Source of the DNA: Burkholderiaceae bacterium
GTDB taxonomy: Bacteria; Pseudomonadota; Gammaproteobacteria; Burkholderiales; Burkholderiaceae_A
DNA length: 44,128 nucleotides
Direction of reading: 5' to 3'
Assembly: GCA_018882795.1 (NCBI GenBank)
Contig: VERJ01000012.1
Location: 1-44,128 of the forward strand
The notes under the pieces were generated by a model. The model made no database searches. It worked only from the letters and a program-made list of their open reading frames with translations, and was not told the DNA's origin. This document shows, in pieces, positions 2,597 through 19,494 of this stretch. A program made the position numbers and the translations under genes. The number at the start of each line of letters is the position of its first letter. Within the stretch, counting starts at the first letter, position 1.

Positions 2597-3418
2597 TTAT
2601 GAGGCAGGACCCTGGCTTGAAAGCTCGGCCGCCTGAAGGACTTCTCGCAGGCTGACCACGTGTCCGATCACGATCAGCGCGGGAGGCTGCACCTGCTCTG
2701 AGATCGCCAATTGCGGCAGGGTGCTGATGGTGCCAGTCACGCAACGTTCCCGATCAGTTGTTGCGCGCTCAATAAGTGCCGCTGGAGTATCTGGTGCAAG
2801 GCCGTGGGCCATCAATTGCCTTGCGATGATGGGCAGTGTGCCAATGCCCATGTAGATCACGACGGTCTGCTGTGGTCGTGCCAGCATCTCCCAGTCGAGC
2901 TCCACCTGGTGATTCTCGCGCAGATGGCCCGTGGCGAAAATCAGTGTGCGTGAATGATCCCGATGGGTGAGCGGAATACCGCAAGAGGCCGATGCGCCTT
3001 GTGCTGAGGTGATGCCGGGGATCACTTCAAAAGGGATGTTGGCTGCCGCCAGCGCCTGGGCTTCCTCGCCGCCGCGGCCAAAGATGTAGCCATCACCACC
3101 TTTGAGTCTGAGCACGCGTCGGCCTTGCTGCGCGAGCCCGATCATGACCTCGCTGATTTTCTCCTGGGGCATAGTGTGCCGTGATGACTCTTTGCCGACA
3201 TAGATGCGCTCTGCTGAAGATGGCAGAAACCGCAGTACTTCGTCGCTCACCAAGTGATCGTAGAGCACCACATCGGCGCACTGTAGCGCCCGATAAGCCT
3301 TCAAGGTCAGCAGCTCCCAGTCGCCCGGCCCGGCGCCAACGAGTGTCACCATGCCTTGTGTGGGTTTTATATTCATGGCGTCGAATCCGATTAGCCGATC
3401 AAGGCTGTTATCCCTCAT
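2597..3418 (-). CDS. nirE: Uroporphyrinogen-III C-methyltransferase (SUMT) for heme d1 synthesis
   Basis: The enzyme uses S-adenosylmethionine to methylate uroporphyrinogen III twice, giving precorrin-2, the first committed step to siroheme and heme d1. Family motifs are VTLVGAGPGDWELLT, the VVLYDHLVS segment, RLKGGDGYIFGRGGEE and the PGITSAQG loop. An in-frame ATG exists at 3469, but the DNA around 3456-3461 has the appearance of the promoter -10 element, so that start is unlikely. I chose the ATG at 3418, preceded by GGGGGA at 10-nt spacing. It lies exactly as far from the centre of the divergent palindrome (3490.5) as the start of the opposite cytochrome gene. The ATG at 3376 (MNIKPTQG) is also possible and matches family length best. 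The symbol nirE rather than cobA/cysG rests on context. Confidence 0.88.
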   Translation of the reverse strand: MRDNSLDRLIGFDAMNIKPTQGMVTLVGAGPGDWELLTLKAYRALQCADVVLYDHLVSDEVLRFLPSSAERIYVGKESSRHTMPQEKISEVMIGLAQQGRRVLRLKGGDGYIFGRGGEEAQALAAANIPFEVIPGITSAQGASASCGIPLTHRDHSRTLIFATGHLRENHQVELDWEMLARPQQTVVIYMGIGTLPIIARQLMAHGLAPDTPAALIERATTDRERCVTGTISTLPQLAISEQVQPPALIVIGHVVSLREVLQAAELSSQGPAS

Positions 3419-3455
3419 GTTCACTGCATCCCCCCGTCTGTCTTGGATGGGATGA

Positions 3456-3461
3456 ATTCTG
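3456..3461 (-). promoter_or_regulatory. Predicted -10 hexamer of the nirE promoter
   Basis: The minus strand reads CAGAAT inside the 12-mer ATCGCCAGAATT. The same 12-mer occurs upstream of nirS at 17695-17706, with identical spacing (29.5 bp) from the centre of the FNR-type box. Confidence 0.55.
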
Positions 3462-3474
3462 GCGATCATAAATC

Positions 3475-3506
3475 GCGCTTTCCTTAATCTGGATTAAGGA
3501 AAGCGC
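3475..3506. promoter_or_regulatory. Divergent operator: perfect 14-bp inverted repeat with an FNR-like TTAAT-N4-ATTAA core
   Basis: Arms 3475-3488 and 3493-3506 are perfectly complementary around CTGG. The core at 3484-3497 is TTAATCTGGATTAA, which has the FNR/Dnr half-site spacing but A/T at the usual G/C position of each half-site. It is centred between nirE and the nirC-nirF operon, and candidate -10 elements stand 29.5 bp from its centre on both sides (CAGAAT to the left, CAAGAT to the right). A Dnr-type regulator binding here could activate both operons. As RNA the repeat could also fold into a strong hairpin. Confidence 0.65.
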
Positions 3507-3562: not shown

Positions 3563-3958
3563 GTGAATTTGCGTCCGGTGTTGAGTTTGATTGTTGCTGC
3601 GGGTGCCTGTCTGGCCGAAGTATCGATCGGCCTGGCCGCACCGAGTGGCGCGGTTGCGCTGGCAGCACCTTCGGCCTTTGCACCTGCAGTCAGTCGCCAG
3701 CAGGCCCTGGTGCGCATGGTGCGTCAGGATTGCGGTTCTTGCCATGGCATGCGGCTCACGGGCGGCCTAGGCCCGGCACTCACCCCGCAGGCTTTGCGGG
3801 AAAAGCCGGTGGAGTCGCTTGCCGTCACCATTTACTCCGGCCGCCCGGGCACCCCCATGCCGCCTTGGCGCGCCATGCTCTCTTATGAAGAAGCGCAGTG
3901 GATCGTGGAGCAACTGCTCTCCGGTTTTCCAGAGGAACCAATGGGGAGGCCGCATTGA
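3563..3958 (+). CDS. nirC: Periplasmic monoheme cytochrome c, NirC-like
   Basis: A 131-residue protein with an N-terminal export signal (hydrophobic residues about 5-25) and one c-type heme site, CGSCH at 57-61. A probable distal ligand is Met99 in GTPMPPW. NirC-type cytochromes accompany heme d1 operons and can donate electrons to NirS or act in d1 maturation. The start is a GTG with a G-rich Shine-Dalgarno about 7 nt upstream. It is the first gene of the rightward heme d1 operon, and its stop overlaps the TTG start of nirF. The gene symbol rests on position and heme content; it could equally be called a cytochrome c55X. Confidence 0.8.
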   Translation: MNLRPVLSLIVAAGACLAEVSIGLAAPSGAVALAAPSAFAPAVSRQQALVRMVRQDCGSCHGMRLTGGLGPALTPQALREKPVESLAVTIYSGRPGTPMPPWRAMLSYEEAQWIVEQLLSGFPEEPMGRPH

Positions 3959-5142
3959 AACGTAGGACATTTCTTGGTGCCGCAATGGGCAGTGCGTGCC
4001 TATTGGTCGGTTGTGCCACCGGTGGTGCGGGCCCGCTGGTCGGTACTGGGGATCTCGGCGTGGTGATTGCGCGGGCCCGGGGCCGGGTGGTGATTGTGAA
4101 TACCAGCACGCGTCGTGTGGTGGCTCAGATCGATGGCCTGGGGGATCTCTCGCATGCATCGGTCGTGTTCTCCCGCGATGGCAAATACGCCTATGTGTTT
4201 GGCCGCGATGGTGGACTCACCAAGGTCAATCTGCTGTCGCAGTCCATTGAGCATCGCGTGATGCAGGCTGGCAATTCCATTGGTGGTGCTATTTCGGCTG
4301 ACGGAAAGCTGGTGGTGGCGCAGAACTATGTGCCGGGTGGCATCAAGGTGTTTGATGCAGACACACTGGAATTGAAACTCGATCTGCCTGCTAGCTATGG
4401 CAGTGGCCAGCTCTCGCGCGTGGTGGGACTGGTGGATCTGCCCAATCGCCGCTTTGCCTACAGCCTGTTCGATGCCGATGAGATTTGGATTGTTGATTGC
4501 AATGATCTTAAACAGCCAGGCATTCAGAAGTTCAGCAAGATCGGCCGCCAGCCCTACGATGCCCTGGTCACACCGAATGGCCGCCATTACATTGCGGGAT
4601 TATTTGGCCAGGATGGTCTTGCCATGATTGATCTCTGGGAATCTGCACCACGTGTGCAATTGATTCTTGGGGGCTATGGCCGGGGTGATCAGCCTTTACC
4701 GGTCTACAAGATGCCCCATCTGCGGGGATGGGCTGTTGCGGGCCGTCGCGCTTATCTGCCCGCGATTGGACGGCCTGAAGTGCTCGTGGTCGATACCGAG
4801 ACCTGGCAGGAGGTGGGCCGCATTCCCGTTGCGGGCCAGCCGGTGTTCGTGATGGCACGGCCTGATGGCCGCCAGGTCTGGGTGAATTTCTCGGTGCCGG
4901 ATTACGACAAAGTGCAGGTGATCGACACCCAATCACAGCGCATTGTGAAGACTCTGTCACCTGGCAAGGCGGTGCTGCATATGGAATTCACACCGCGCGG
5001 CGAGGCGGTCTGGATCAGCGCACGCGATGCCAATCAGGTCAGCATCGTGAACACGCAGACACTTGTGAAAGAAGCAGAGCTCTCGGTGGATGCACCCTCA
5101 GGCATTTTTTTCACCTCCCGTGCCCATCGGATGGGATTCTGA
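3955..5142 (+). CDS. nirF: Heme d1 biosynthesis protein NirF, predicted periplasmic lipoprotein
   Basis: A 395-residue beta-propeller related to the d1 domain of NirS. NirF acts late in heme d1 formation, after the radical SAM step. I place the start at TTG 3955, preceded by GGGGAGG 5 nt upstream and overlapping the stop of the cytochrome gene. From there the protein begins MKRRTFLGAA and has a lipoprotein signal with lipobox L17-V18-G19-C20. The frame stays open upstream to an ATG at 3898, but that start would bury the signal peptide. Propeller repeats include VFSRDGKYAYVFGRDGGLTKVNL, AISADGKLVVAQNYVPGGIKV and VDTETWQEVGRIPVAGQPV. NirDL starts 3 bp after its stop. Confidence 0.93.
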   Translation: MKRRTFLGAAMGSACLLVGCATGGAGPLVGTGDLGVVIARARGRVVIVNTSTRRVVAQIDGLGDLSHASVVFSRDGKYAYVFGRDGGLTKVNLLSQSIEHRVMQAGNSIGGAISADGKLVVAQNYVPGGIKVFDADTLELKLDLPASYGSGQLSRVVGLVDLPNRRFAYSLFDADEIWIVDCNDLKQPGIQKFSKIGRQPYDALVTPNGRHYIAGLFGQDGLAMIDLWESAPRVQLILGGYGRGDQPLPVYKMPHLRGWAVAGRRAYLPAIGRPEVLVVDTETWQEVGRIPVAGQPVFVMARPDGRQVWVNFSVPDYDKVQVIDTQSQRIVKTLSPGKAVLHMEFTPRGEAVWISARDANQVSIVNTQTLVKEAELSVDAPSGIFFTSRAHRMGF

Positions 5143-5145
5143 GCG

Positions 5146-6141
5146 ATGGAGCTCATCAATCGCTACCAGCGTGACTTTCCTCTCAGCGCGGCGCCCTTTG
5201 CCGATATTGGGCGCATCCAGGGCCTCACTGACCAGCAGGTCATGCAGGCCTATCGGGATGCGCTTGATTCCGGCGCGGTGAGTCGCTTGGGCGGCGTGTT
5301 TCACCAGTCTGCAGGTGGCGCTTCAACATTGGCGGCCATGGCCGTGCCACCGGATCGCCTTCACGCGGTAGCTGCCCAGGTATCTGCAGAACCTGGCGTG
5401 AATCACAACTATGAGCGTGAGCATCATTTCAATCTCTGGTTTGTGCTTACTGCGCAGAACCAGTTGCGCTTACAGCAGACACTGAATCGACTGGAACTGG
5501 CCACCGGCCTGCCGATCATGGTCTTGCCAATGGTGCGTCCCTATCGCATTGACCTAGCCTTTGATTTGAATGGCTCCACCGCATCGCATACACAGGGCGG
5601 CAGCAAGGCACCCGTGCGTGTGATTCGTGAGGATGAAGTCCCCCTTGCCGCATTGGTGGAGGAGGGCCTGACGATTTGCCCCCGGCCTTTTGATGTCTGG
5701 GCCCAAGAGATTGGCTGGCCTGTTGAACAGGTACTCTCAAGTCTTCAAGAATGGTTGGATACGGGACTCTTGCGGCGCTTCGGCACGGTAGTGCGGCATC
5801 ATGAGTTTGGATTTGATGCCAATGCGATGACTGTGTTTGAAGTGCCGGCTGCGCAGGTGGACAGTTTTGGCCTTGCATTGGCCCAGCAGCCCGAGGTCAC
5901 GCTGTCTTATCAGCGCGTGACCGCCAAGAGCTGGTCTTATAACCTGTATTGCATGGTGCATGGCCGGGATCGTGCAACAGTGTGCAACACGATTACCGAC
6001 TTGATTCAGCGCTGTGGGCTCCAGGCCTATCCTCATGCGGTGCTTTTTTCATTGCAGCGCTTTAAGCAGCAAGGGGCAATGCGGTTCCGCACTGCTACCC
6101 CGCAGACGACCGATGCCGGAGTGGATCATGTTCTCGCCTGA
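5146..6141 (+). CDS. nirDL: Siroheme decarboxylase, fused NirD-NirL type
   Basis: A 331-residue protein made of two AsnC/Lrp-like halves. The N-terminal (NirD-type) half has a winged-helix start and the signature NHNYEREHHFNLWFV at 86-100, with the conserved histidines expected near the porphyrin site. The C-terminal (NirL-type) half has a second helix-turn-helix-like region and YQRVTAKSWSYNLYCMVHG. With NirG and NirH it removes two propionate carboxyl groups from siroheme to give 12,18-didecarboxysiroheme. The DNA-binding look of these domains is ancestral and does not indicate a regulator. The fusion is the common form in betaproteobacteria. Its stop overlaps the nirG start by 14 nt, implying translational coupling. 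Confidence 0.93.
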   Translation: MELINRYQRDFPLSAAPFADIGRIQGLTDQQVMQAYRDALDSGAVSRLGGVFHQSAGGASTLAAMAVPPDRLHAVAAQVSAEPGVNHNYEREHHFNLWFVLTAQNQLRLQQTLNRLELATGLPIMVLPMVRPYRIDLAFDLNGSTASHTQGGSKAPVRVIREDEVPLAALVEEGLTICPRPFDVWAQEIGWPVEQVLSSLQEWLDTGLLRRFGTVVRHHEFGFDANAMTVFEVPAAQVDSFGLALAQQPEVTLSYQRVTAKSWSYNLYCMVHGRDRATVCNTITDLIQRCGLQAYPHAVLFSLQRFKQQGAMRFRTATPQTTDAGVDHVLA

Positions 6142-6619
6142 AGATCTTGATCTGATTGATGCGCTGCATGGCGGATTTCCGCTCACTGATCGGCCTTTTG
6201 CAGACATTGCTCGCAGTCTCGGCTCAACCGAGGATGACGTGATTGCTCGATTGCAGCGGCTGCTCGCCGAAGGGGTGATCACGCGCTTTGGTCCCCTGTT
6301 TCAGATTGAGCGTGCTGGTGGCCGGTTTGTGCTTGCAGCGATTGCCGTGCCTGCGCAGGACTTTGATCGGGTCGCGCGCATCGTCAATGGGTTTACAGAG
6401 GTGGCACACAACTATCGGCGTGAGCATCGGCTCAATATGTGGTTTGTGGTGGCCGCCGAGACCGCTATCCTGGCCGATCGGGTGATACAGAAAATTGAGA
6501 AAGCGACCGGTCTGCCGGTGCTGGCGTTTCCTAAGGAAAAAGAGTTTTTTGTTGAATTGCGCCTGCCCCTGAAGTCCGCGGCAGGCACGGCGGCGAGTGC
6601 ACATCATGCAACTGTCTGA
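6128..6619 (+). CDS. nirG: Siroheme decarboxylase subunit NirG
   Basis: A 163-residue AsnC/Lrp-fold protein that begins MFSPEDLDLIDALHGGFPLTDRPF. It contains AHNYRREHRLNMWFVVAAE, the same catalytic-region signature as the NirD half of the preceding gene, so it is a NirD-like paralogue. The ATG at 6128 has GGAGTG just upstream and overlaps the nirDL stop by 14 nt; more upstream in-frame ATGs lie inside nirDL and would give an unlikely N terminus. It works as part of the NirDLGH siroheme decarboxylase. Confidence 0.9.
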   Translation: MFSPEDLDLIDALHGGFPLTDRPFADIARSLGSTEDDVIARLQRLLAEGVITRFGPLFQIERAGGRFVLAAIAVPAQDFDRVARIVNGFTEVAHNYRREHRLNMWFVVAAETAILADRVIQKIEKATGLPVLAFPKEKEFFVELRLPLKSAAGTAASAHHATV

Positions 6620-7088
6620 ACTCGATCGGGCTTTAGTTCGACTCACGCAGTCGGGCCTGCCACTCACCCCCCGGCCCTATGATGCAGTGGGTGAGCAGCT
6701 CGGTGTCTCGGGTCAGGTGGTCCGAGAACGGCTCTCGGAAATGCTGCGCACGAATTTGATTCGTCGTATCGGCGCAGTGCCCAATCATTACCGATTGGGC
6801 TTTACGGTCAATGGCATGACAGTCTGGGATATCGAAGATGCCGAGGTGGATATTGTTGGCGAGAAAATCGGGGCCCTGGAGTTTGTTAGCCATTGTTACC
6901 GTCGGCCGCGCCATTTGCCTGACTGGCCCTATAACCTGTTTGCCATGGTGCATGGCCGCTCACGCATTGATGTGGAGGAGCAGATTGCGCAGATCGCTGA
7001 CTTGCTCGGGCCATCCTGCCGTGGCCATGATGTGTTGTATTCCAGCGAGATCCTTAAAAAAACCGGCTTCAGAATGGGAGAGTCCTGA
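6606..7088 (+). CDS. nirH: Siroheme decarboxylase subunit NirH
   Basis: A 160-residue AsnC/Lrp-fold protein. The motif CYRRPRHLPDWPYNLFAMVHGR marks it as the NirL/NirH type, paralogous to the C-terminal half of nirDL. The start at 6606 (MQLSELDRALVRLTQSG) overlaps nirG by 14 nt, the same overlap as between nirDL and nirG. It pairs with NirG in decarboxylating siroheme. nirJ begins 2 bp after its stop. Confidence 0.9.
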   Translation: MQLSELDRALVRLTQSGLPLTPRPYDAVGEQLGVSGQVVRERLSEMLRTNLIRRIGAVPNHYRLGFTVNGMTVWDIEDAEVDIVGEKIGALEFVSHCYRRPRHLPDWPYNLFAMVHGRSRIDVEEQIAQIADLLGPSCRGHDVLYSSEILKKTGFRMGES

Positions 7089-7090
7089 TC

Positions 7091-8293
7091 ATGTTTCGTG
7101 TGAGTCAATACATGCGGGAGTTGGCCAGTGCCCAGGGCAATGGTGTTTATCCGGCACCGGCAGCCTATGCAGGCCGTGGCGGATCCTCCGGGGGCGCTGG
7201 CATTGGCCCTGTAGTGATCTGGAATCTGATCCGCCGTTGCAATCTCACCTGCAAACACTGTTATGCGCTTTCTGCTGATCATGATTATCCCAATGAATTA
7301 AGTACCCAGGAAGTCTTCACCGTGATGGACGATCTCAAGGCCTATCGTGTGCCGGTGCTGATTCTGTCGGGTGGTGAGCCGCTGATGCGGCCGGATCTGT
7401 TCGAGATCGCTGCACGCGCCAAATCCATGGGGTTTTATGTTGGGCTCTCCACCAATGGCACGCTGATCGATGGCCCAATGGCCGATCGTGTGGCCCAGGC
7501 GGGATTTAACTATGTGGGCATCAGTCTGGATGGTCTAAAGCAGACCCACGACAAATTTCGCAGACTAGAGGGCGCCTTTGACTTGAGTCTGAATGCCGTG
7601 CGTCTGCTGCATGCCCGAGGTGTGAAGGTGGGGCTGCGCTTCACCATGACGGCGCTCAACGCCCATGATTTTCCTGCGCTGCTGGATCTGATGCGTATCG
7701 AGCAGGCAGAGAAGTTTTATTTTTCGCATCTGAACTATGCCGGTCGGGGCAATATCCATCGTGATAAGGATGCCCAATTCATCGCCACACGGCAGGCCCT
7801 AGATCTGCTCTTTGATCGGGCCTGGGATGCAGCGACTCAGGGGCTTGAAGAGGAATACGTCACAGGCAATAACGATGCCGATGGGGTCTGGCTGCTGCAG
7901 TGGGTGGCAGGCCGCATGCCGCAGTGGGTCGATCCCCTGCGTAAGCGCTTGGTGGCCTGGGGCGGGAATTCAAGTGGCGTGAATGTGGCCAATATCGATA
8001 ACCTTGGCCATGTGCATCCCGACACCATGTGGTGGCACTACGACCTTGGTTCGGTACGTAAGCGACCGTTCTCCGAGATCTGGTCGGATACCAGCGATCC
8101 TTTGATGTCGGGCCTCAAGGCCAAGCCCCGGCAAGTGAAGGGCCGCTGCGGCCAGTGCCGATATTTCGATGTCTGCGGCGGCAACACCCGGGTGCGTGCC
8201 CAGCAGATGACGGGAGATTTCTGGGCAGAGGATCCCGGCTGCTATCTCACGGATGAAGAAGTTTCTCGTGATGCTGCGGGTGTTTATGCATAA
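7091..8293 (+). CDS. nirJ: Radical SAM heme d1 biosynthesis protein NirJ
   Basis: A 400-residue radical SAM/SPASM enzyme. The [4Fe-4S]-AdoMet motif is CNLTCKHCY, with cysteines at 50, 54 and 57. It is followed by LSGGEPLMRPDL and the strand VGISLDGL. The C-terminal SPASM-type region carries CGQCRYFDVCGG and a later cysteine in EDPGCYL, for a second iron-sulphur cluster. NirJ replaces the propionate groups on rings A and B of didecarboxysiroheme on the way to the oxo groups of heme d1. A GGGAG ribosome-binding site precedes the ATG. Its end overlaps nirN. Confidence 0.95.
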   Translation: MFRVSQYMRELASAQGNGVYPAPAAYAGRGGSSGGAGIGPVVIWNLIRRCNLTCKHCYALSADHDYPNELSTQEVFTVMDDLKAYRVPVLILSGGEPLMRPDLFEIAARAKSMGFYVGLSTNGTLIDGPMADRVAQAGFNYVGISLDGLKQTHDKFRRLEGAFDLSLNAVRLLHARGVKVGLRFTMTALNAHDFPALLDLMRIEQAEKFYFSHLNYAGRGNIHRDKDAQFIATRQALDLLFDRAWDAATQGLEEEYVTGNNDADGVWLLQWVAGRMPQWVDPLRKRLVAWGGNSSGVNVANIDNLGHVHPDTMWWHYDLGSVRKRPFSEIWSDTSDPLMSGLKAKPRQVKGRCGQCRYFDVCGGNTRVRAQQMTGDFWAEDPGCYLTDEEVSRDAAGVYA

Positions 8294-9917
8294 CGTCTCC
8301 CAGCGTATGGTGCTGCGCTTTGTGTTGACGATCGCCATCTTCTGGATGGCGATGCAGATGCCTCATGTTCGCGCGCAGGCCGTAGATAAAAATCCACCAA
8401 GCGCCGCACCAAATCCCGCCGCGCTTTATCAGACCCATTGTGTCGCCTGCCATGGTGTGCAGCGTGTGGGGGGCATGGGGCCTGCGCTGTTGCCGGAGAG
8501 CTTAGCCCGGGTGCGCAACCCGGAGTTGACCGCGGTGATTGCCCGTGGCCGTGTGGCCACCCAGATGCCAGCCTTTGAGAAGCTCTTGTCTGAGACCGAG
8601 ATTGCTGCCTTGGTGAAATGGGTCCGCACGCCTGTATCACCCGCACCGGCCTGGAGTGATGATGACATCCGGGCTTCGCGCATCGTTGCGCCCGTTGAAC
8701 GCAAGGATTCCAATCGTCCGATCTGGTCTGCCGATCCGATGAATCTCTTTGTGGTGGTGGAGGGCGGTGATCACCATATTTCCTTGCTTGATGGTGATCG
8801 ATTCGAGGTGATTCACCGCTTTGCCTCACGGTTTGCGCTGCATGGTGGTCCGAAATTTTCTCCTGACGGCCGGTTTGTTTACTTTGGTTCCCGCGATGGT
8901 TGGATCACTAAATATGATTTATGGAATTTGCGGGTAGTGGCCGAAGTCCGTGCCGGATTGAATATGCGCAATGTCGCGGTAAGTGCTGATGGCAAGTTTG
9001 TAATGGCTGCGAATTACCTGCCGCATACGGTGGTGCTCTTTGATGAGCAGCTGAACCTGATCCGCTCTTATGCGGCCCAATCGCTTGATGAAAAAACATC
9101 CTCACGCGTATCAGCGGTCTACGATGCCGCGCCACGCAAGAGCTTTGTAGTGGCGCTCAAAGACATTCCGGAGATCTGGGAGATCTCCTATGACCCGAAT
9201 GCAAAACCCATTTTCGATGGCTATGTCCACGATTACCGGATGGGAGAGGCCGTGCCCCGCCCCGGATTTCATGGGGTGCGCAGAACCCGCCTTGATGAGC
9301 CCCTGGATGATTTCTTTTTTGATCAATCCTATGCCTATGTGCTAGGTGCAACGCGGCCAAAAGATGGTGCGGATGAGTCTTCCCGGGCCACGGCCCAGGT
9401 GGTCAATCTGGACATCCGCAGAAAAGTGGCGGATTTGACCATTGCTGGAATGCCGCATCTGGGGTCGGGCATCACGTTTGCCTGGAATAAGGGAACAGTC
9501 CTGGCCAGCCCGAATCTGAAAGACGGATCGATTGATGTGATTGAGATGGGCAGTTGGAAGCCAGTGGCGTCTGTGAAAACTCCAGGGCCCGGATTTTTCA
9601 TGCGCAGTCATGAAAACAGCCGCTATGCCTGGACAGACTCCATGATGAGCCCCTCGACCAAAGACACGCTGAGCATTATTGACAAGCAGACCCTCACCGT
9701 GGTGCGGCAGGTCAAGGAGCCAGGTAAGACGCTGGCGCACATTGAATTCACGCGCGACGGCCGCTATGCCTTGGCCAGTGTCTGGGAGCAGGATGGCGCC
9801 ATAGTGGTGTTTGATGCCAACACCTTTGCCGAAGTGAAGCGTCTGCCCATGAAAAAACCTGTCGGTAAATACAACGTCTGGAACAAGATCACCCGATCTG
9901 AGGGTACATCCCACTGA
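8253..9917 (+). CDS. nirN: Dihydro-heme d1 dehydrogenase NirN, c-type heme plus d1 propeller
   Basis: A 554-residue periplasmic protein: export signal, cytochrome c domain with CVACH (63-67), then an eight-bladed propeller homologous to NirS and NirF. Propeller signatures are KFSPDGRFVYFGSRDGWITKYDLW, AVSADGKFVMAANYLP and HIEFTRDGRYALASVWEQDG. NirN oxidises dihydro-heme d1 to heme d1 and helps deliver it to NirS. The start is uncertain: the listed ATG overlaps nirJ by 41 nt; ATGs at 8286 (weak GCGGGTG site, 8-nt overlap) and 8307 would still give a good signal peptide (FVLTIAIFWMAMQMPHVRAQA). It is distinguished from NirS by sequence and by lying inside the biosynthesis operon. Confidence 0.9.
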   Translation: MKKFLVMLRVFMHNVSQRMVLRFVLTIAIFWMAMQMPHVRAQAVDKNPPSAAPNPAALYQTHCVACHGVQRVGGMGPALLPESLARVRNPELTAVIARGRVATQMPAFEKLLSETEIAALVKWVRTPVSPAPAWSDDDIRASRIVAPVERKDSNRPIWSADPMNLFVVVEGGDHHISLLDGDRFEVIHRFASRFALHGGPKFSPDGRFVYFGSRDGWITKYDLWNLRVVAEVRAGLNMRNVAVSADGKFVMAANYLPHTVVLFDEQLNLIRSYAAQSLDEKTSSRVSAVYDAAPRKSFVVALKDIPEIWEISYDPNAKPIFDGYVHDYRMGEAVPRPGFHGVRRTRLDEPLDDFFFDQSYAYVLGATRPKDGADESSRATAQVVNLDIRRKVADLTIAGMPHLGSGITFAWNKGTVLASPNLKDGSIDVIEMGSWKPVASVKTPGPGFFMRSHENSRYAWTDSMMSPSTKDTLSIIDKQTLTVVRQVKEPGKTLAHIEFTRDGRYALASVWEQDGAIVVFDANTFAEVKRLPMKKPVGKYNVWNKITRSEGTSH

Positions 9918-9918
9918 G

Positions 9919-10833
9919 ATGATGGAGTCGATTGGCGCTGTTATCCGACAGGTCGCACGAAAGCGTGGCACGGCCAAGCCGCTGTCGCGTGAGCAGGCCG
10001 CCGAGGTGATGGGGGCCATTCTGGATGGTCATGTCAGTGATATCGAGATGGGTGCGCTGTGTGTTGCCATGCGACTTAAGGGTGAGACAGCCGAGGAATT
10101 ATTAGGTTTTCTGGATGCAGTCCATGCCCGTGTCCACCGGGTGCGCAGCACCGATGGCCGTCCTGTGATTGTGATTCCCAGCTATAACGGCGCCCGCAGG
10201 CTACCGGTGCTCACGCCTCTGCTGGCTCTGCTCTTGGCCCGCCAGGGCCATGCGGTGCTGGTGCATGGATCAGCTACGGAGACTGTGCGCGTGACCAGTG
10301 AGGTGGTGTTTGCAGGCCTTGGAATTTCTCCGTCGATGCCGCATGCGACGATTGCCGCTGGCACGGTGCATGTTGTGCAGACCCAGGCCCTCTGCCCGGG
10401 TCTGAAGCGCCTGATTGATATCCGGCTGCGCACAGGTCTGCGCAACTCAGGCCACAGCCTTGTCAAACTGATGAATCCCGTGAATGGCGCCGCCTGCTTA
10501 TTGGCCAGTTACACCCATGGTGAGTATGCCGAGGCGATGTCGAATGTGGTGGTCGCGATGCAGGCCACAGGGCTGCTGATGCACGGGGTGGAGGGAGAGC
10601 CCATAGTGGATGGCCGTCGCATTGCCGAGACCGAGGCCTTCATTGGTGGACGCACGCTTCCGATTGCTGAATTGATCGATTTGAGCCAAACAGTCGAAGC
10701 GCTGCCCACTGGGAATATTGACGCGGAGAGCACCGTTACACTGATTCGATCTGTGCTGGAGGGGCGTGAGCCCGTGCCCATGGCCATGCAGCAGGAGATT
10801 AATGCGGTTGATACGCTGCTGCGGATGGCCTGA
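9919..10833 (+). CDS. TrpD2/YbiB-family protein (anthranilate phosphoribosyltransferase-like fold)
   Basis: A 304-residue protein with the nucleoside phosphorylase/TrpD fold: an N-terminal helical domain (LSREQAAEVMGAILDGHVSDIEMGALCVAMRLKGET) and a larger alpha/beta domain. It lacks a clear PRPP-binding glycine loop where true TrpD has one (here PSYNGARRLPVLTPLLA), as in TrpD2/YbiB. E. coli YbiB binds nucleic acids and is linked to the SOS response; its biochemical role is unknown. Its ATG is 1 bp after the nirN stop, so it is the last gene of the heme d1 operon. Whether it serves denitrification or is simply carried along cannot be told. It converges with, and overlaps by 35 bp, the next gene. 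Confidence 0.8.
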   Translation: MMESIGAVIRQVARKRGTAKPLSREQAAEVMGAILDGHVSDIEMGALCVAMRLKGETAEELLGFLDAVHARVHRVRSTDGRPVIVIPSYNGARRLPVLTPLLALLLARQGHAVLVHGSATETVRVTSEVVFAGLGISPSMPHATIAAGTVHVVQTQALCPGLKRLIDIRLRTGLRNSGHSLVKLMNPVNGAACLLASYTHGEYAEAMSNVVVAMQATGLLMHGVEGEPIVDGRRIAETEAFIGGRTLPIAELIDLSQTVEALPTGNIDAESTVTLIRSVLEGREPVPMAMQQEINAVDTLLRMA

Positions 10834-11896
10834 TCAGCATGCGACTGATCAGCACGATTGCAAATGTGAGGAGCGTCAGGCCATTGATGAGGGCGCCGTA
10901 TTGACGAATCAGGAAGTTATCAAAGATCTGCCCCAATACCCGAATGGAGAGCGAGATCCAAAGCAGCACCAGCGGCAGGTACAAGATGCGATGAAAACTG
11001 ATTTTGATTCTGGCAATCGCTGGAAAGATGATCAAGGCATGGCCAAACACCATGGAAAATACAAATCCGATGGCGATGGTGTGCAGGGTCGCGTCGTGCA
11101 GGCGATGGCTAGTTTCAAATCCACCAAACAGCCCGAATAGCCCTGCCAGGGCCAGCCAGATATAGCCGGTGAACAGGCAGATTGCGATGTAACGGGTAGC
11201 CCCTGATTGCGACAGGTTATGCCGGGCGATATCAAAGCGCATCAGCCAGATCGCAAGACCGAAAATGCCCACCGACATCAGTGTAAAGCCGATGCGGGGG
11301 CTCATGCTCGCAAGGCCAGCGCCGCTGAGGGCCGCAGCAATCAGGCCATAAAACACCAGTGTTGCTGATTCCGGAACAGGAACAAACCTGGTCAGCTCTA
11401 GTCGCTCACCCGCGATGGTGATCACCAGAAAAAGAATCCACCAGGGCGTGGCCGTGGCTGGTATTCCAGTGAGCCACCAGGTTAGGCTGGCGATCAGCCA
11501 GCACAGGGTGGCCAGAAACAGTGTGATCGTGAATGGCGCAAGCATCCGGCGCAGTACTTCAATGCTCGCAAAAGCCAGCAGCATACTGGCCAGGATGGCC
11601 AGGCCTGCCGCAAGGGATGCAGGCAGCAGCAAGAGCAGCACCAGGCCGCTGGCCGCGCTGATGATCGGCGCCACAAACGAGAGTTTCGTGTTCAGCGCAA
11701 CGGCCCGTTCCAGACTGATGACGGTGCCAAAAAACGCCGACATCATCAGCGGCCCATGCTGGCCTGCCAAGGCCGATGGCCAGTCTGCAAGTGGCCAGCC
11801 AATGCGGGCTAGGCCCGAGGTCACGCCAAGCGCCATTGATGCCACTGCAGTGAGCAGCAAGCCCATGCGAAGAAACGAGGAGGCTGTAAGGGCCAT
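10799..11896 (-). CDS. Polytopic membrane protein, divergent NnrS-like
   Basis: A 365-residue protein consisting almost wholly of about 12 hydrophobic helices. Two blocks resemble NnrS: GQHGPLMMSAFFGTVISLERA (cf. WHAHEMLWGFVITIAIGF in the nnrS at 19557) and LHTIAIGFVFSMVFGHALIIFPAIARI (cf. VHTMAMGGFSVLIIGMITRTALGHLGR). The histidines in these blocks would suit heme or metal binding. NnrS proteins protect against nitrosative stress and iron-dinitrosyl formation; a similar role here is inferred. It lies 36 bp downstream of the DUF59 gene, presumably in one operon divergent from norCBQD. Homology to NnrS is by eye only. Confidence 0.65.
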   Translation of the reverse strand: MALTASSFLRMGLLLTAVASMALGVTSGLARIGWPLADWPSALAGQHGPLMMSAFFGTVISLERAVALNTKLSFVAPIISAASGLVLLLLLPASLAAGLAILASMLLAFASIEVLRRMLAPFTITLFLATLCWLIASLTWWLTGIPATATPWWILFLVITIAGERLELTRFVPVPESATLVFYGLIAAALSGAGLASMSPRIGFTLMSVGIFGLAIWLMRFDIARHNLSQSGATRYIAICLFTGYIWLALAGLFGLFGGFETSHRLHDATLHTIAIGFVFSMVFGHALIIFPAIARIKISFHRILYLPLVLLWISLSIRVLGQIFDNFLIRQYGALINGLTLLTFAIVLISRMLIRPSAAAYQPH

Positions 11897-12359: not shown

Positions 12360-12373
12360 TTGATGGCAATCAA
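12360..12373 (+). promoter_or_regulatory. Perfect FNR/Dnr box of the norCBQD promoter
   Basis: TTGATGGCAATCAA is an exact TTGAT-N4-ATCAA site. Its centre (12366.5) lies 29.5 bp before CAGACT (12396-12401), the predicted -10, and about 90 bp before the norC ATG. Dnr, encoded 4.6 kb downstream, is the likely activator. Confidence 0.85.
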
Positions 12374-16947: not shown

Positions 16948-17634
16948 TTATTCTTCGAATTCTTGAAGTGCCTTCACGCTGGGAATCACTACCGTGCGGC
17001 CCTGTACCTCGATCAGCTTGAGTTGGGCCAGCTTGGCGAAAATCCGTGACAGTGTCTCGGGCGTAATGCTTAGGCGCGAGGCCACCAGCACCTTGGAGGT
17101 GGGTAGATCAATGGTGATGTTTTCTTGGGCTTCATCCGGGCATTGCTGCAGCAGGTAGCCGATCACCCGTTGTGTAGTGGAGCGAATCGAATACGACTCC
17201 ACATCTTTCACCAGTGAGTGGACCCGCGCGGAGAGTCCGGCCAGCAGGCCACGGGCAAAAGAGGGATCTTCTGTGAGAAGACCATCCACCATTTGCTTGG
17301 AGACATGCAATAGCAAGGTGTCGTTCAGGCTCACCGCGGATACGGGATATGGCCTGCCCAGGAACATCACCGCCTCGCCGAAACTCTGCCGCTGGTTGAT
17401 GATCTCGATGACTTTTTCATCGCCCTGGGGCGAGTCGATGACCAGCTTGATCTGGCCAAACAGCACGATAAAAAAGCCGGTGGCCTCAGACCCCCGGGTA
17501 AACAGGCTTGTCCCCTTGGTGAGGCGGATCTCTTTGGTGCCTTGTGCAATGCGATCCAGTTGTGCGGGCGAAAGGGCCTGAAAAAGCGGGAAGCGGGCCA
17601 GCACTTCCGCCGGCCGAAGTATGGGACTGGTCAT
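16948..17634 (-). CDS. dnr: Crp/Fnr-family regulator, Dnr/NnrR type
   Basis: A 228-residue regulator with an N-terminal cyclic-nucleotide-binding-like domain (LFTRGSEATGFFIVLFGQIKLVIDSPQGDEKVIEII), a dimerisation helix and a C-terminal winged helix. The recognition helix, in SRLSITPETLSRIFAKL, carries the E-xx-SR pattern that reads TTGAT half-sites. It lacks the N-terminal cysteines of oxygen-sensing FNR, so it fits the Dnr class, which senses NO through heme. Position between norD and nirS makes it the likely activator of the FNR-type boxes in this window. The site at 17664-17677 lies just upstream but is not at class II spacing for this gene; it might serve autoregulation. Confidence 0.9.
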   Translation of the reverse strand: MTSPILRPAEVLARFPLFQALSPAQLDRIAQGTKEIRLTKGTSLFTRGSEATGFFIVLFGQIKLVIDSPQGDEKVIEIINQRQSFGEAVMFLGRPYPVSAVSLNDTLLLHVSKQMVDGLLTEDPSFARGLLAGLSARVHSLVKDVESYSIRSTTQRVIGYLLQQCPDEAQENITIDLPTSKVLVASRLSITPETLSRIFAKLAQLKLIEVQGRTVVIPSVKALQEFEE

Positions 17635-17663: not shown

Positions 17664-17677
17664 TTGAGTCAAATCAA
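17664..17677 (+). promoter_or_regulatory. FNR/Dnr box of the nirS promoter
   Basis: TTGAGTCAAATCAA differs from TTGAT-N4-ATCAA at one base. The centre (17670.5) is 29.5 bp before CAGAAT, giving a predicted start of transcription near 17712. Confidence 0.8.
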
Positions 17678-17682
17678 GGTAG

Positions 17683-19494
<1,812 letters not shown>

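Follow-up and report, generated by a model that had tools for sequence, protein, structure and literature searches.

A TrpD2/YbiB gene closes a heme d1 operon and belongs to a family often encoded beside siroheme genes

The heme d1 operon of a Burkholderiaceae bacterium ends in ybiB, a gene of the TrpD2/YbiB family, and members of this family recur across the order beside genes for siroheme synthesis or siroheme enzymes. The link between ybiB and siroheme genes is broad and far from universal. We tentatively propose, with a probability of about 0.4, that YbiB is a polyanion-binding accessory of siroheme supply. The whole stretch of DNA analysed, here called the window, is 44,128 nt long and comes from assembly GCA_018882795.1, contig VERJ01000012.1. 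The original prediction that led to this study was made from the window alone, from which the frequent company of other siroheme genes was not visible; its interpretation as a whole is partly supported.

Results

YbiB identity and fold

The gene at positions 9919 to 10833 on the + strand has an ATG start and encodes 304 aa. Sequence comparison and structure prediction both identify the product as a true TrpD2/YbiB protein, as originally predicted. It scored 303.4 bits against the YbiB model NF006005 (cut-off 185), 136.7 bits against NF006564/PRK09071, below the cut-off of 257, and 42.7 bits against the TrpD model TIGR01245, far below the cut-off of 199. At E 1e-3 the only Pfam match was Glycos_trans_3N, and the only NCBIfam matches were models of the YbiB/TrpD type. 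Neither TIGR01470 nor an NAD-binding domain, the marks sought for a precorrin-2 dehydrogenase, was found in Pfam or NCBIfam at the same E-value. By sequence, the closest solved structures are the YbiB proteins of E. coli and Salmonella, and the predicted model (pLDDT 92.5, pTM 0.92) had as its best PDB match E. coli YbiB (4muo, TM 0.83). The PRPP motif GTGGD is replaced by SYNGA at the aligned place, and owing to this loss the phosphoribosyl-type reaction that the original prediction had raised is unlikely.

The genome (2.03 Mb, 99.8% complete) contains one further, distant match, which is an ordinary trpD on contig C59. This match sits 3′ of anthranilate-synthase-like genes, and the idea that the window ybiB is a copy of the genome's trpD was rejected. 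No viral relatives were confirmed by pattern and tblastn searches of viral_contigs. Within the genus, the window YbiB is 46-47% identical to its counterparts, compared with 75-78% for nirN, so it changes faster than the neighbouring genes. Within its family the gene is ordinary; its location is uncommon.

ybiB is the last cistron of the heme d1 operon

Sequence and gene order place ybiB as the last cistron of nirC-F-DL-G-H-J-N-ybiB. On the + strand, the unit begins with a nirC-like gene for a small cytochrome c (3563-3958) and nirF (3898-5142), which was named from its position and from homologues in other nir clusters and had no specific NCBIfam model above cut-off. These are followed by nirDL (5146-6141), encoding a fused siroheme decarboxylase with AhbA and AhbB halves, and by two genes of the siroheme decarboxylase family, one nirG-like (6014-6619, true start probably more internal) and one nirH-like (6597-7088). 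The heme d1 radical SAM gene nirJ (7091-8293; TIGR04051, 617.8 bits) and nirN (8253-9917), with cytochrome c and cytochrome d1 domains, complete the upstream genes. The nirN stop codon occupies 9915-9917, which confirms that a single base lies between nirN and ybiB. On the opposite strand, a convergent gene for a 365-aa protein (10799-11896) overlaps the end of ybiB by 35 bp and shows where the unit stops. Its product had no Pfam or NCBIfam match above cut-off. Three members of the genus keep this gene next to ybiB (also loci L021 and L022), and since each of them (the window, G017 and G014) has a convergent gene following ybiB, ybiB closes the unit, in agreement with the predicted terminal position.

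The original prediction also held that ybiB must be co-transcribed with nirN. A site scan of 8200-11200 gave no sigma-70-like promoter, nor any terminator-like site on the + strand from 9035 to 10833. This makes co-transcription with the upstream nir genes very likely; the word must was too strong.

The genes for siroheme supply run opposite to the operon from a common intergenic region. These are sumT/nirE (2597-3469, − strand), which encodes a nirE-type uroporphyrinogen-III C-methyltransferase (SUMT) and is divergent from nirC, and a cbiX-type sirohydrochlorin chelatase gene (2221-2589, − strand). The window SUMT was the only one found in the genome, and a single siroheme reductase frame with two domains was found on contig C70. 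Heme d1 synthesis requires siroheme, and the cytochrome cd1 nitrite reductase NirS is the user of heme d1. The window nirS (17725-19494, + strand, true start probably more internal) shares 61-90% identity with the nirS genes of other nir clusters.

Several other features of the window were seen. By eye, a perfect inverted repeat with 14-bp arms and a 4-bp spacer lies at 3475-3506, in the gap from which sumT and nirC diverge. Its core, TTAATCTGGATTAA, has two differences from an FNR/DNR box. A perfect FNR/DNR-type box lies near the norC start (12360-12373), and one with a single mismatch precedes nirS (17664-17677). The gene at 16948-17634 codes for a regulator of the Crp/Fnr type. A flavoprotein resembling nitronate monooxygenase and FabK is encoded 3′ of sumT and cbiX (892-2136, − strand); G014 has no counterpart at that place, and the sole match in G017 was weak and lay on the opposite strand.

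The nirN-ybiB arrangement is limited to one genus

Our sample of the order comprised 399 genomes, with YbiB above cut-off in 142, NirJ in 82 (85 at E 1e-110) and both in 40. A YbiB gene above cut-off lay directly 3′ of nirN in three of the 85 nirJ-positive genomes, all from the genus of the window. In G017 and G014, nirN and ybiB follow each other on one strand; 75 bp separate them in G017, and in G014 the gap is 5-50 bp according to which start codon is taken. Since these two genomes keep the pair, the adjacency is not peculiar to one strain; nor is it general, being limited to one genus in the sample.

Five of the 40 genomes with both YbiB and NirJ, namely G698, G704 and the three members of the genus, have ybiB no more than 6.5 kb from heme d1 genes. 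In G704, nirE, ybiB and cobA stand in a row on one strand, with nirE and ybiB some 250-280 bp apart when the likeliest starts are used; if cobA is read from its nearest start, it shares 4 bp with ybiB. The nirS gene and the remaining nir cluster are divergent from this row. The stretch from nirE to ybiB in G704 was also considered as a possible NasT remnant, a reading dropped when neither the fragment nor its peptide was matched among the loci fetched. G698 carries two nirS copies, and ybiB lies ahead of the first, about 0.5 kb upstream and in the same orientation. Both copies are nirS-like genes in tandem (L238, 10528-12105 and 6837-8471, − strand), with identities of 61% and 74% to the window NirS. 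Linkage of ybiB to d1 genes was seen in 5/16 nirJ-positive YbiB genomes without nirB versus 0/24 with nirB (p 0.007), three of the five being congeners.

ybiB genes recur beside siroheme genes

We examined the neighbourhoods of 148 over-cut-off ybiB loci in 142 genomes, the window included. Contexts were called by tblastn with reference proteins from Rhodoferax (L030) and the window, using 6.5 kb as the general cut-off and 400 bp for adjacency. The assimilatory nitrate genes nasA or nirB accompany ybiB at 51 loci from 18 families. In overlapping categories of the same 148 loci, nasA is directly upstream of ybiB at 39, cobA (SUMT) lies within 400 bp at 27 and cbiX within 6.5 kb at 22. The other loci comprise 5 at d1 genes, 3 with cobA alone, 15 with a PP2C-kinase gene, 2 with a NasT-like gene and 72 elsewhere; of these 72, five lie beside cysI (siroheme sulfite reductase), and in seven cbiX is no farther than 2.3 kb from ybiB. 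Altogether, 74 of the 148 ybiB loci, drawn from 23 of 36 families, have a siroheme-pathway or siroheme-enzyme gene within 6.5 kb; the chance rate of such neighbours is roughly guessed at about 2%. The other 74 loci, some of which stop at contig ends, had no siroheme gene within 6.5 kb. These loci, together with E. coli, where ybiB sits with dinG, count against an accessory role in siroheme supply.

Apart from the window's own locus, a class-wide search returned seven YbiB loci above cut-off, two from the window's order and five from outside it. Six of the seven had nasA, cobA or cbiX within 1.5 kb, including four of the five from outside the order, versus 1 of the 22 loci returned for lower-scoring relatives (Fisher p 1e-4). 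Among the literature matches listed, siroheme, heme d1 or nitrate operons are not connected with YbiB/TrpD2 in any title or abstract opening.

In family f200 (L216, L217 and L218), ybiB is followed by cysI on the same strand about 1 kb away, and in L216 a TauE/SafE-like permease gene, named by eye, lies between them. A PP2C-type kinase gene adjoins ybiB at 15 loci from five families (e.g. L213, L228 and L269) with no nasA or nirB within 6.5 kb, this label having been assigned only to loci of that kind.

At the PP2C-kinase loci, the kinase gene lies within 400 bp of ybiB and is homologous to a kinase gene found close to nas in Rhodoferax. These loci and the two beside a NasT-like gene would fit a YbiB that regulates nas or nir operons by binding their leaders or messages with such partners. 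We consider this improbable: no NasT or PP2C-kinase gene was recognised at the window operon, and E. coli YbiB is described in PMC10123104 as binding without apparent sequence preference.

Conserved groove residues and nucleic-acid binding

PMC10123104 describes E. coli YbiB as having two basic grooves that bind DNA, with the acidic tail of ObgE binding a groove near Arg92 and Arg123. The equivalent residues of the window protein, Arg93 and Arg124, are kept and are invariant in all 29 rows of a YbiB alignment, as are several further basic and histidine residues. In a wider alignment of 162 rows, R93 was present in 138 and R124 in 132, and most of the basic residues invariant in the 29 rows dropped below 85%. 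Comparison of 72 siroheme-linked rows with 90 others gave R14 in 68 versus 48, R93 in 70 versus 68, R124 in 68 versus 64, R169 in 71 versus 71, H200 in 68 versus 58 and E227 in 72 versus 80. Groove and pocket residues are therefore better conserved in the siroheme-linked copies, in a comparison that ignores kinship between rows.

The kept arginines make nucleic-acid binding by the window YbiB possible, as the original prediction had supposed; what such binding leaves unexplained is the siroheme context. YbiB might be a sequence-independent nucleic-acid binder that shields DNA or RNA from NO or from the nitrosating species of nitrite reduction, much as is thought for E. coli. The window protein belongs to the right family, nirS and nor genes lie near its gene, and the E. 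coli ybiB operon is under LexA control according to PMC10123104. A DNA role is also in keeping with the dinG neighbourhood in E. coli and with the helicase domains that PMC5445326 names as neighbours of a 452-sequence YbiB cluster. Nonspecific DNA binding, however, leaves the 27 loci with cobA within 400 bp unexplained; the cysI-linked (five loci) and cobA-linked copies involve no reactive nitrogen, which also weighs against any role in NO stress or DNA damage, and no DNA-repair gene was recognised adjoining the window ybiB. We regard nucleic-acid protection as conceivable and somewhat doubtful. PMC10123104 itself states that the cellular role of YbiB needs further studies.

YbiB and precorrin-2 oxidation

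No match to the CysG-N/SirC precorrin-2 dehydrogenase model TIGR01470 was found in any of the five genomes with a d1-linked ybiB (the window genome G000, G014, G017, G704 and G698). A hidden precorrin-2 dehydrogenase in the window genome was sought and rejected: the three PF13241 matches above cut-off are TrkA-, ketol-acid-reductoisomerase- and MurD-type proteins. Among 210 genomes with nirB or nirJ, 83 had YbiB alone, 70 CysG-N alone, 29 both and 28 neither. YbiB and CysG-N thus tend toward mutual exclusion, partly through descent (by family p 0.009; the Fisher test ignores kinship).

These patterns would be expected if YbiB performed or enabled the oxidation of precorrin-2 to sirohydrochlorin where CysG or SirC is absent, and PMC4063343 reports no obvious precorrin-2 dehydrogenase candidate in Paracoccus denitrificans. 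We think this very improbable. The protein has a TrpD fold and matches no NAD-binding family, and CysG-N is also present in 13 of the 51 nas-linked ybiB genomes. The 28 genomes with neither protein show that YbiB is no general need, and with the 29 that have both they led us not to keep strict replacement of CysG-N as the main reading. PMC4063343 further describes the rescue of an E. coli cysG strain carrying cobA by cbiX alone, so the oxidation step may need no dedicated enzyme there.

Descent of the window ybiB

We built a quick maximum-likelihood tree of 168 proteins, with SH-aLRT as its sole support measure and the window row on a long branch. The window YbiB grouped with its two genus relatives (SH-aLRT 81), and this trio fell inside a set of 18-19 rows (SH-aLRT 98, 97) whose remaining members are nas- or cobA-linked and include Rhodoferax and G704. 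The 19-row set (SH-aLRT 97) consists of 12 nas-, 3 cobA- and 4 d1-linked rows. As the closest relatives lie in nasA-ybiB-cobA operons, the tree points to a nas-type assimilatory nitrate operon as the most likely source from which the d1 operon acquired its ybiB. Arrival of the window SUMT with ybiB from a nas operon was considered and rejected, since this protein is nearest to nirE genes, with 71% identity in the genus and 69% in G704 versus 39-47% for cobA copies.

Across the tree, context labels changed 21 times for nas, 3 times for d1 and 3 times for cysI; well-supported branches force no fewer than 12, 2 and 2 of these changes, respectively. Such separate placements beside siroheme genes argue against ybiB being a hitchhiker that uses the operon's expression and contributes nothing to heme d1 or nitrite chemistry. 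For E. coli ybiB, PMC10123104 raises hitchhiking as a possibility. Hitchhiking would suit the faster change of the window ybiB relative to its neighbours, the confinement of the position directly after nirN to one genus, and the absence of a YbiB-level match from 4/7 genomes of that genus (two of the four being 78-79% complete). On balance we judge it unlikely.

Discussion

The recurrent company of ybiB hints that the YbiB family aids siroheme supply or use, beyond DNA binding. Siroheme and its precursors carry many carboxylates. No YbiB is known to bind tetrapyrroles. In the accessory role that we favour, the basic groove of YbiB would bind polycarboxylate isobacteriochlorins, namely precorrin-2, sirohydrochlorin and siroheme, and would guard them from loss or oxidation. 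YbiB would then pass them from SUMT and CbiX to their users, NirB or CysI, or, in the window, NirDL for heme d1. A polyanion groove together with carboxylate-rich siroheme precursors would explain why ybiB keeps company with SUMT, CbiX and the siroheme users.

The siroheme link points to a gap, the step from precorrin-2 to sirohydrochlorin in CysG-less bacteria such as that of the window. A bolder form of the proposal, which we hold to be a long shot, is that TrpD2/YbiB would be an unrecognised factor completing siroheme formation, through precorrin-2 oxidation or safe transfer, in proteobacteria that have SUMT and CbiX and lack CysG or SirC. DNA binding would then be a side effect of the polyanion groove, and nirN-ybiB would be the heme d1 version of the arrangement. 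In either form, the repeated link to siroheme enzymes gives a definite hypothesis for the role of YbiB/TrpD2, with the d1 operon as a clean test site.

Among known systems, E. coli YbiB (PDB 4muo and 8bfr) shares the NF006005 family, the fold, the loss of the PRPP motif and the two groove arginines with the window protein, at ~30% identity. The operons differ, being dinG-ybiB in E. coli and nirN-ybiB here, where the neighbours of ybiB are nirN and the gene for the convergent protein, with no dinG. TrpD anthranilate phosphoribosyltransferase has the overall fold in common with the window YbiB (TM ~0.7). The window protein lacks the GTGGD motif of that enzyme and misses the TIGR01245 cut-off, and the genome has its own trpD.

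The nasA-ybiB-cobA genes of Rhodoferax (L024, L030) and Curvibacter (L023) are 47-50% identical to the window YbiB, are among its best named matches and fall in the same clade. There ybiB lies between nasA and cobA, with nirB and nirD, whereas in the window it follows nirN and sumT is divergent. Roseobacter-type nir operons offer another likeness: PMC4063343, where the role of a Paracoccus CbiX was demonstrated, describes cbiX after nirN in some of these bacteria, an end gene tied to siroheme, as the window ybiB may be. Their end gene encodes the CbiX chelatase, whereas the window has its own cbiX at 2221-2589 and YbiB is of another family.
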